Shown: one piece after another, positions 15,991 through 19,740 of the stretch
Layout: each line of letters starts with the position of its first letter
Numbering within the stretch: the first letter of the stretch is position 1
Origin: an uncultured Candidatus Altimarinota bacterium
GTDB lineage: Bacteria > Patescibacteriota > Gracilibacteria > BD1-5 > UBA6164
Direction: 5' to 3'
NCBI GenBank assembly: GCA_938015455.1
Contig: CALLPL010000025.1
Coordinates: 1 to 40,237, forward strand
DNA: 40,237 nt
Made by a program: the position numbers and the translations under genes
Notes under the pieces: model-generated
Told to the model about the DNA's origin: nothing
The model's database searches: none
The model's input: only the letters and a program-made list of their open reading frames with translations

Positions 15991-18900
15991 TTATTTCTTA
16001 AGAATTATTTTTGCTATCGTTTCTCAGAGCTCTATTTCTTTCTCTACATCTCAAGATGAGAGAGAACTATCAAGAGTAGAGAGCGTCTCAGAGGCTATAT
16101 CATAGCTTGCGAGGATCGCTTCTAGGTTCTCTACTATGATATTCACGCTTATTCTATCGTCAACCTGATATCAGGCCTCTTTACGAGCCTCCTGTATATG
16201 CCTAACGATGTCTCGCGCTTGTCCCTCGACCTCAAGCTCTGGAGTGATCTCAAGATTCATCGCGATAACCATACCAAATCCTGACTCTATATTGTCTGAT
16301 TCTCCTTCAGTCACATAGGCAAACTCAAACTCTCATTCCTCGAGCCAAACTTCACTTCCGTCATCAAGTGTTATAAATACCCCAGCGCTTGCGTCTTGTT
16401 CTTCAAAGTTTCACTGCTTTGCTGCTTTCATAATGTCCTTAACTTGTTTTCCAAATTTTGGCCCGATGAGACGACCATTTGGCTTACAGATCTTTTGTGC
16501 TATAGAGCTAGAATCTACTTCGAGAACCTCCTTGATATTGAGTTCTTCTTTGATGATGTCTTTGTAATACTCACTCAGGTGTTCTCAGGTAGAAATACTT
16601 TGAAGTGGTTGCCTGACTCTGATTTTTTGAGCTGTTCTAAGCGATAAACCAAGATTAATAACTTTTTGGCAGAGATCCATAGAGCTATTGAGCTCTGTGT
16701 CTATGAGCGAACTGTCTGCTTTTGGAAAGTCTGTGAGATGCACAGACTCATTTCCTGTGAGATTTTTATAAATTTCCTCCGTTACAAATGGCATAAATGG
16801 AGCAACGACTTGTGAAAGCATTACAAGGACCTCGTAGAGCGTTTCGTATGCCTGCATCTTATCTCCATCATTCTCTGATTTCCAGAAACGTTTTCTTGAT
16901 CTTCTAATGTACCAGTTTGTCAGATTATCCATGAACCTGACGATAGGACGAGTTGCATCTGTGACTTCATAGTTCTCCATTCATTTTTCTACTTCTGCAA
17001 TGAGGGTGTGAGTTTCTGAGATGATCCATACATCGAGAGGATTTGACCTCACCCTAACCCTCTCCTTAGAGGAGAAGGGACTAGCTGCAGTTTCATCCTC
17101 TCCTTGAGGAGAGGAATTGAGGTGAGGTTTTTGGAAACCATCAATATTTGCGTAAGTGGTAAAGAAAGAGTAAGTATTCCAGAGAGGGAGAATAACTTTT
17201 TTAATCACCTCTACAATTCCTTCTTCTTTGAAATCCATGTTTCCACCGGTAAGTAGGGGAGAGTTGGCCATGTAGAATCTAATAGCATCAGCTCCATATT
17301 TCTGAATTGTTCCTCGTGGATCAGGATAGTTTCCATATGATTTACTCATCTTGCGTCCATCTGATCCATTTACGATTCCCGTAGTTATGACATTGGTAAA
17401 TGCTCTCTTATCAAAGAGTGCGACTCCTACCACATGCATGACATAAAACCATGCTCTCACTTGTCCGATATACTCGACAATAAAGTCAGCAGGATATGAA
17501 CTCTCCATTGGAGCTTTATTTTCAAAGGGGTAGTGCATCTGCGCATATGGCATAGACCCTGAATCCATCCACACGTCGAGTACTTCTGGGAGTCTCTGCA
17601 TTGGTTCTCAATGTTTGATTGTTCCTATAAGTACAGATATATTTCACTCGAGTGAGTGGTCTCATGTTTCTCTCTCAATAAAAGTAGCTCAGAATTTTTC
17701 TGCGAATTCTCTTCCTTTTTCAAAAGGAGTTGTCTGGTCATCTTTTGCATGGATAGCTATACACTCATCTACAAGCTTTGTGAGATTAAAAGTATCTAAA
17801 CTCTTGTGAATAGCTGCTATATTCGGTCTTTGTCCGTCCTGGGTACTTGCACTACTTCCAGGGGCCTTCATTACTAACCTCTTAAGTTTTATATTATTTT
17901 CTATAATATACTTTGTAGTCATTAAGCATCATAGCGAGCTTGCATATACAGCATCATACTCAGAAAAATCTATAGTATCGAATGTCTCTTTCCAAGATTC
18001 ATAGCTGGGGTCCTTTTGAATATTGAATTGAAGCAGTTCAAGTTCCATTCATTGCTGTTTAAAGTCCTCTTTGAGTTTTATCCATTTTTCTCATGTTATA
18101 TTACTCTCATGTCCATGTACTCAGAGAACTTTTTTTGCTACGAAAGACTTTTCACTAGAGATAAAGATATCATCAATAAATGGTCTGTGTAAATTAAGCT
18201 CTTTTCACTCAAACTCTCAGCTAGTAAAATAGTATTTTCCTTCTTTTTCTTCTAATTGACCGAACGGTTTATTTCATTCAAAAATTTCTTTTTTACTGGC
18301 AAGTACTCTGAGCTCATCATTTGAGTTTTTCCAGATAGGCATAGGAGTTCCCCAATAACGGGTTCGGCTGATACACCAATCAGGAGCTGACTCAACTGAT
18401 TTGAGGAATTGCCCGTGTTTCAGATGATTTGGTTGCCAGTTGATTCCTTCGTTTTCAGCTATGAGCTTATCCTTCATATCCTGGATATTCACGAACCATG
18501 AGTCTTGAGCCTTATAGATGAGCGGAGTTCATGAGCGAGGACACATCGCAACTCGGTGATTAATAGATTCTTTCTTGAAGAGTCTTCCCATCTCTTTGAG
18601 TTTTTCTGAGATTACATCATTTGCTTCTATATAATGCATTCCCTCATAATCAGAGATTTCTTCTGTGTATTTCCCAGCATTATCCAGAGCAGCTGATATA
18701 TGAACTCCTACTTTCTGTGCCAGTTGAAAATCGACGTCCCCAAACTCAGGAGCTTGATGCCCAATACCTGTACCGTCAGTATCAGTGATAAAGTCTGCAT
18801 CGAGAATTTTATGATTCTTCTCTGGATCAACCGTTCATTGATAGTACTTGAAAGGAGCCTCATAGCTGAGTCCAATAAGATCAGATCCCATAAAACTTTC

Positions 18901-19740
18901 CACTATCTCATATTCACGGCCCTTGAATACTGTTTCTACTCTCGCAGTTGCGAGGATATAATAATCTCACTCAGAAGAGACTCGGCTATAGGCAAGTTTT
19001 GAATTAAGAGCCATACTCATATGAGCAGGAATAGTCCACGGGGTAGTCGTCCAAGCGAGGATGAAATCTCCAGTTTTTACATGCGTATGATCCTGGGTGA
19101 GTGGAAACATCACTGTAACTGCTGGATCAGAAACGGTTTCGTATGAGTCGTCCATCGCGACCTCAAAGTTTGAGATAGGAGTAGAGAGTTTCCAAGAGTA
19201 GAGCGAGACTCTTTGACCTTTATATACCATACCCTTATCCCACATAGACTTAAACACCCACATAACAGACTCCATATAATCCTGATCCATCGTCTTATAT
19301 GCATTCTCCATATCTACCCAACGACCAATATGATCGATATACCAGTCCCACTCAGCAGATGTTTCCTGAGTATATTTATAACATTCCTCGATAAAGGTCT
19401 TGATACCAATCTTTTCGATATCTTTGCTCGATTCGAGTCCTAGTTTTTTCTGAACCTTTTCCTCAATTGGCAGGCCATGACAATCCCAACCCCAAACACG
19501 TTCACAACGTTTTCCTTGCATCGTATGATACCTAGGAACAATATCCTTAATTATACTCGAGAGCAGGGAACCATAGTGAGGAGTCCCCGTAATAAACGGA
19601 GGACCATCATAAAACCTATACGGATTCTCCGCAGGTCTCTGCTCAATAGACTTCTTAAAGGTATCATTCTCCTTCCAGAATGCTACGATCTTTGCCTCCA
19701 TCTCTGGAAAGCTCTGTTTTGGGTTTACTTTTGGGAACAT
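15991..19740 (-). CDS. ileS: Isoleucyl-tRNA synthetase with an inserted alpha/beta-hydrolase domain
   Basis: 1249 residues, clearly longer than the usual 1040-1100 of type 2 (eukaryote-like) IleRS. It charges tRNA-Ile in the cytoplasm. Seen: ATP motif I as HYGS (residues 55-58; family form HYGH), the WTTTPWT(I/L)P editing-domain entry near 240, the WYWGTPMPIW-type segment RTRYWGTPMPIW near 445, RLPEVLDVWMDSGSMPYAQ from about 716, and KMSKS at 797-801. Between LHRPFIDDIF and RLPEVLDVW, where a zinc-binding knob normally lies, there is a domain of about 180 residues resembling an RBBP9/YdeN-type serine hydrolase (separate entry), and no CxxC pairs. A palindromic repeat is translated at about residues 871-898. 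The frame is continuous from the ATG at 19740 to TAA with many TGA codons. Confidence 0.96.
17046..17128 (-). repeat. Palindromic repeat inserted in frame in ileS
   Basis: Two hairpins (cctctcctcaaggagagg and cttctcctctaaggagag type) joined by a short core containing tgaaactgcagc, with outer inverted ends acctcac/gtgaggt. It is translated in frame as a Ser/Gly/Glu/Arg-rich loop (PHLNSSPQGEDETAASPF, then SSKERVRVRSN) between two helices of the catalytic-to-anticodon-domain junction. The same layout is seen at 33083-33188 (intergenic) and, with variation, at 31021-31099 (in the AAA ATPase). Confidence 0.85.
17603..18147 (-). other. Serine alpha/beta-hydrolase domain embedded in IleRS
   Basis: About 182 residues (roughly 532-713 of IleRS). 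It begins VAKKVLGVHGHESNITGEKW, resembling the first strand and oxyanion loop of RBBP9/YdeN-like hydrolases, continues with YDAVYASSLGCLMTTKYI, where Ser602 is at the nucleophile position of the family GHSLGG motif (here ASSLGC), then ECIAIHAKDDQTTPFEKG with the Asp667/Asp668 pair, and ATFIERETGDHSLEG with His695. The order strand-Ser-Asp-His and the spacing fit a complete catalytic triad. Whether it is active, and on what, cannot be told from sequence. Confidence 0.8.

Follow-up and report, generated by a model that had tools for sequence, protein, structure and literature searches.

The isoleucyl-tRNA synthetase (IleRS) encoded in the window (the whole stretch of 40,237 nucleotides of DNA that was analysed) harbors an intact serine hydrolase domain of the RBBP9/YdeN family, as judged from its sequence and its predicted structure. 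The domain is read here as an autonomous, catalytically intact lodger that is exchanged laterally between ileS genes and belongs to a wider set of enzymes lodged in large proteins. A probability of about 0.7 is assigned to this reading.

The ileS gene occupies positions 15991..19740 on the reverse strand, as do all features within it, and encodes a protein of 1249 amino acids (assigned with genetic code 25, NCBIfam and Pfam). Under code 25 the reading frame is uninterrupted, with 21 in-frame TGA codons read as glycine, which agrees with the claim of the earlier note that the IleRS frame continues on both sides of the insert to a total of 1249 residues. The whole protein exceeds the equivalog cut-off of the NCBIfam ileS model (823.9 versus 621.4 bits) and contains the Pfam domains tRNA-synt_1, Anticodon_1 and DUF5915, the last of which lies at the C-terminus, the arrangement of type 2 IleRS (88.4 bits, cut-off 27). 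A second ileS was not found in the window genome, where the gene is single copy. The closest solved structure is 8c8u, the Priestia-type IleRS2 of Priestia megaterium. The KMSKS motif is intact (residues 797-801; 17338..17352) and the motifs of the CP1 editing domain are present. The ‘HIGH’ motif reads HYGS (residues 55-58; 19567..19578), as it does in nearly all members of the window’s host clade, one HYGN and one HYGT excepted. HYGH is the form in the other clade. The HYGS form may change ATP binding or inhibitor sensitivity.

The hydrolase domain spans approximately residues 536-711 (17608..18135) and was delimited by Pfam, a PDB profile search, AlphaFold2 and a fold search. Its upstream junction (residues 517-535, LHRPFIDDIFISSEKSFVA; 18136..18192) is marked by HxxxxDxI..K, a pattern shared by insert-bearing and insert-free copies, and host sequence reaches to about residue 529. 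Downstream, the host resumes at residues 712-724 (EPMQRLPEVLDVW; 17569..17607) with (G)xPLxRIPEVLD, conserved in all insert-bearing copies. All motifs named by the earlier note are in place, beginning at residues 517 (LHRPFIDDIF), 538 (VLGVHGHESN), 600 (ASSLGC), 665 (AKDDQTTPF), 693 (GDHSLEG) and 712 (EPMQRLPEVLDVW). The putative catalytic triad consists of Ser602 in the ASSLG nucleophile elbow (codon 17935..17937), Asp668 (17737..17739) and His695 (17656..17658), which align to Ser75, Asp138 and His165 of RBBP9. All three residues are invariant in the alignment of the 11 IleRS copies of the domain.

The proposal that a full serine alpha/beta-hydrolase sits inside IleRS was borne out by each approach. 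Searched alone, the insert scores above the cut-off of Pfam Ser_hydrolase (PF06821; 29.7 versus 22 bits), and a PDB profile search retrieves YdeN (1uxo) with an E-value of 7e-15. An AlphaFold2 model of the insert, built on the alignment of the 11 IleRS copies, reaches a pLDDT of 86 and a pTM of 0.85. The top structural match of this model by Foldseek and VIA-align is again 1uxo (Z 21.3, 2.5 A over 173 residues), followed by human RBBP9 (2qs9; VIA-align Z 19.5), with the remaining hydrolase structures at Z 16.4 or below. A model of 1060 residues comprising IleRS and the domain has a pLDDT of 49 on a shallow alignment, so the placement of the domain on the host surface is presumed.

The insert occupies the position at which type 2 IleRS carries a zinc-binding knob, and the knob cysteines are absent from the window protein, as the earlier note pointed out. 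That note considered the domain a possible structural replacement for the knob. However, the cysteines are equally missing from all 30 insert-free relatives, in which the segment is a short linker (e.g., RPYIDDIMWKEGDITYTRLPEVLD) and whose host proteins are up to 84% identical. The missing cysteines are therefore unconnected to the insert. A stand-in for the zinc knob is refuted for these lineages by their insert-free members and has next to no chance of being correct.

Ten of 77 genomes of the window’s order (the window counted) carry this hydrolase domain at this position of IleRS, with 11 domains altogether. A search of other Gracilibacteria, which the earlier note had proposed, thus yielded nine further genomes, all of them Gracilibacteria: McBI.71, STE_112, STD2_250, DOLJORAL78, DOLZORAL124, W9, STE_160, RB_MAG_00017 and LH_M95. 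Both junctions are common to all IleRS copies of the domain. Most of the compared genomes are draft metagenome assemblies, and the window itself is a single draft metagenome contig, a setting in which a separate hydrolase gene could be joined to ileS by error. Such a mis-assembly is excluded because the insert and both of its junctions recur in nine other genomes; the window gene also forms one unbroken frame, and the probability of an artefact is practically nil. The insert is absent from the window’s own genus, among relatives whose ileS is readable across the site, and in a sample of 287 genomes from the phylum lodged hydrolases were not seen outside the class Gracilibacteria.

The 11 IleRS copies and eight free-standing hydrolase genes of the same lineage form one clade (support 100/99), in which the free-standing genes are nested among the lodged copies. 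Hydrolases lodged in leucyl-tRNA synthetase (LeuRS) fall mainly into a separate clade. On a quick IleRS tree built from host sequences without the inserts, the presence of the insert demands nine changes, seven of them forced by well-supported branches, and shuffled presence labels give a mean of 9.1 changes. Insert presence has no phylogenetic signal on this tree. Part of the patchiness could be explained by one old gain followed by many losses.

The insert-bearing pair G035 and G356 is the most informative on lateral movement. Between their inserts 10.5 of 89.5 silent sites differ (dS 0.128), as against 248 of 614 in the hosts (dS 0.579), a silent divergence about 4.5 times lower in the insert (Fisher p 1.5e-8). 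The island of high identity coincides with the insert, and the host IleRS of G356 is sister to that of the insert-free genome G010. Taken together, these observations indicate that the insert was shared later than its host genes. Limited evidence, mainly from this one genome pair, thus supports a hydrolase domain that moves laterally between ileS genes. No flanking repeats that could be insertion scars are found at the insert junctions. In the same pair dN/dS is 0.23 in the insert and 0.23 in the host, which shows purifying selection on the insert. Because the triad is kept and dN/dS is low in this pair, the lodged hydrolase is probably catalytically active.

The hydrolase is not the only lodger in these synthetases. 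The IleRSs of the window’s order have five insertion sites, A to E, with other lodged domains identified by Pfam and other host proteins by NCBIfam. Site A (217-226) takes a Nudix domain, site B (496-513) a histidine phosphatase, site C the RBBP9/YdeN-like hydrolase, site D (741-779) a GNAT, histidine phosphatase or DUF559 domain, and site E (about 891) a histidine phosphatase. The IleRS of LH_M95, at 1925 residues, holds one Nudix domain, two histidine phosphatases and two hydrolases in tandem, and another genome (G018) has a GNAT domain inside its IleRS. Across the class, the lodged set comprises Nudix, histidine phosphatase, 2H-like, GNAT, Ham1 and hydrolase domains in IleRS, valyl-tRNA synthetase (ValRS) and LeuRS, with histidine phosphatases in both IleRS and ValRS. 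Elsewhere in the phylum, the sampled genomes have a single histidine phosphatase, at site B of IleRS. Relatives of the hydrolase are lodged in LeuRS (eight genomes), UvrC, UvrB and SecA; seven of the eight LeuRS copies share a site immediately ahead of the CP1 editing domain.

The LeuRS of the window genome (1097 amino acids; G000:C6, L209:519-3812, reverse strand) contains a Ham1/ITPase domain at about residues 812-1020, between the anticodon-binding and C-terminal domains. Unlike the patchy hydrolase, this domain has matches throughout the window’s genus, as well as in G008 and G014. At site E, the window ileS carries an in-frame palindromic element (residues 866-900, HLNSSPQGEDETAASPFSSKERVRVR; 17041..17145) where relatives carry a histidine phosphatase. 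The element is strongly self-complementary, with a minimum free energy of -42.5 kcal/mol over 105 nt, and a similar stretch is found at G000:C6:23657-23731 and in LeuRS.

Several further arrangements were observed in individual genomes. The IleRS of G044 (L068:6000-11234, reverse strand; 1745 amino acids) has a DUF559 nuclease-like domain with repeat-like flanks at site D, which may connect palindromic elements with insertions. At L163:864-5255 and L149, the LeuRS of G403 contains three copies of a domain of about 110 amino acids, one of them within the lodged hydrolase itself, and the LeuRS of G402 contains one similar domain. The IleRS of G362 (L168:1-3327, reverse strand) has a 2H-phosphoesterase-like domain (HATI...HITF) beside a histidine phosphatase. 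In G367 (L162:1175-4435; L150), UvrB carries a histidine phosphatase and a hydrolase, and UvrC carries a hydrolase. Free-standing relatives of Ham1 adjoin free-standing relatives of the hydrolase in G016:C73 and G021:C33.

A selfish or neutral lodger could be kept simply because its clean deletion from an essential gene is difficult, its activity being irrelevant to the cell. Presence without phylogenetic signal, lateral movement and the variety of unrelated domain families that share these sites, including one site that also accepts palindromic elements, are compatible with this scenario. However, the triad is intact in all 11 IleRS copies, dN/dS in the insert equals that of the essential host, and the lodgers are nearly all small enzymes, not random sequence. 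A purely selfish or neutral lodger is therefore considered very unlikely.

The family to which the domain belongs offers some guidance on its substrate. RBBP9 has aminopeptidase activity towards hydrophobic and chiefly aromatic residues. It traps Leu/Ile, Met, Phe, Tyr and Trp, and is considered to hydrolyse bonds of the amide, ester or thioester type that these residues form (PMC8866121). Its Glu108 holds the alpha-amine, the basis of the aminopeptidase activity. Another alpha/beta hydrolase, BPHL, has homocysteine thiolactonase activity (PMC4198189). The leading candidate substrate of the lodged hydrolase, held with low confidence, is a small molecule in which a hydrophobic amino acid forms an ester or amide, or a damaged metabolite of similar kind. 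In a gapped loop alignment that leaves the assignment unsure, the equivalent of Glu108 is apparently Asn in the window’s subclade and apparently Glu in some IleRS copies and most LeuRS copies. An amino-acid ester may thus not be the substrate in the window’s subclade.

An extra editing or deacylase activity was one of the roles suggested by the earlier note. The same family properties would fit a role in quality control in cis, in which the hydrolase clears wrong amino acids from tRNAIle or removes an editing by-product such as homocysteine thiolactone. RBBP9 acts on hydrophobic amino-acid derivatives (PMC8866121) and BPHL on homocysteine thiolactone (PMC4198189), hydrolases of the family have lodged independently in LeuRS, chiefly next to its editing domain, and in G362 a free hydrolase of the same clade lies directly upstream of ileS, beside two Nudix genes. 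A tRNA-specific role, or one tied to isoleucylation, is nevertheless weakened by the range of hosts, which include the DNA-repair proteins UvrB and UvrC and the secretion protein SecA in addition to LeuRS, by the presence of CP1 editing motifs in the host, and by the lack of the domain in most close relatives. The amine-binding Glu also seems to be Asn in the window, as far as the loop alignment can be trusted. Overall, quality control in cis appears unlikely.

The preferred reading, an autonomous and laterally exchanged lodger, can be outlined as follows. The hydrolase lodges in-frame in an IleRS linker, after the CP1/knob region and ahead of the second half of the catalytic domain. Translated in one frame with IleRS, it most likely works in the mature protein as a separate enzyme tethered to its host, with the domain presumably active and host aminoacylation presumably retained. 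The module, which also occurs as a free gene, would pass from one ileS gene to another among related bacteria; recombination within the conserved ileS sequence on either side is the simplest route. It is one of a set of small enzymes (Nudix, histidine phosphatase, Ham1/ITPase, GNAT, 2H-like and hydrolase) that Gracilibacteria carry inside IleRS, ValRS and LeuRS and inside a few more large housekeeping proteins. A broader proposal is held tentatively, at somewhat less than even odds: small complete enzyme genes may have a mobile lifestyle, spreading laterally by in-frame insertion at fixed permissive sites of essential and conserved proteins, above all the branched-chain aminoacyl-tRNA synthetases. 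Left unspliced, they would gain constant expression and protection from deletion.

In these bacteria, which have small genomes, whole metabolic enzymes appear to be gained and lost at fixed positions within an essential synthetase, with as many as five in one protein. If true, genes would persist and be transferred in an unusual way, spreading inside essential proteins. The lodged enzymes make it testable whether the synthetases of these lineages double as house-cleaning stations. For protein engineering, the lodger sites would also amount to a naturally occurring list of places where insertions are tolerated. Annotation calls for caution, as lodger-bearing proteins can be named after either part.

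Extra domains in aminoacyl-tRNA synthetases are known and are usually stable lineage appendages. Open-access full texts yielded no account of lodgers that are laterally mobile and catalytically intact and that occupy fixed positions within IleRS, an absence that carries little weight because it covers open-access texts only. Known systems resemble the window IleRS in part. Members of the RBBP9/YdeN family (PF06821) share the fold of the insert, its length of about 180 amino acids and its Ser-Asp-His triad, but the members compared are free-standing, whereas the insert is embedded in IleRS and its Glu108 equivalent is apparently Asn. Type 2 IleRS (Priestia megaterium IleRS2, 8c8u) shares the core, DUF5915 and KMSKS with the window protein, which differs in lacking the knob cysteines, in having HYGS instead of HxGH, and in carrying a 176-residue enzyme at the knob position. 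An IleRS with an N-acetyltransferase (NCBIfam NF040702, ileS_w_GNAT) likewise has an extra enzyme domain, but a different one, and the window IleRS scores 265.3 bits against a cut-off of 1999, below the threshold of that family. In Mycoplasma penetrans, an aminotransferase has been added to methionyl-tRNA synthetase; this appendage sits at the N-terminus, unlike a laterally mobile insertion within the chain, and is described as capable of providing the amino acid substrate (PMC7694997). Inteins also reside in conserved essential proteins, spread laterally and have a patchy distribution. An intein was considered for the insert and rejected, as its Pfam scan gives hydrolase families only and no Hint or splicing domain. 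The lodger instead has a hydrolase fold whose active site is intact, and it appears to remain in the protein.
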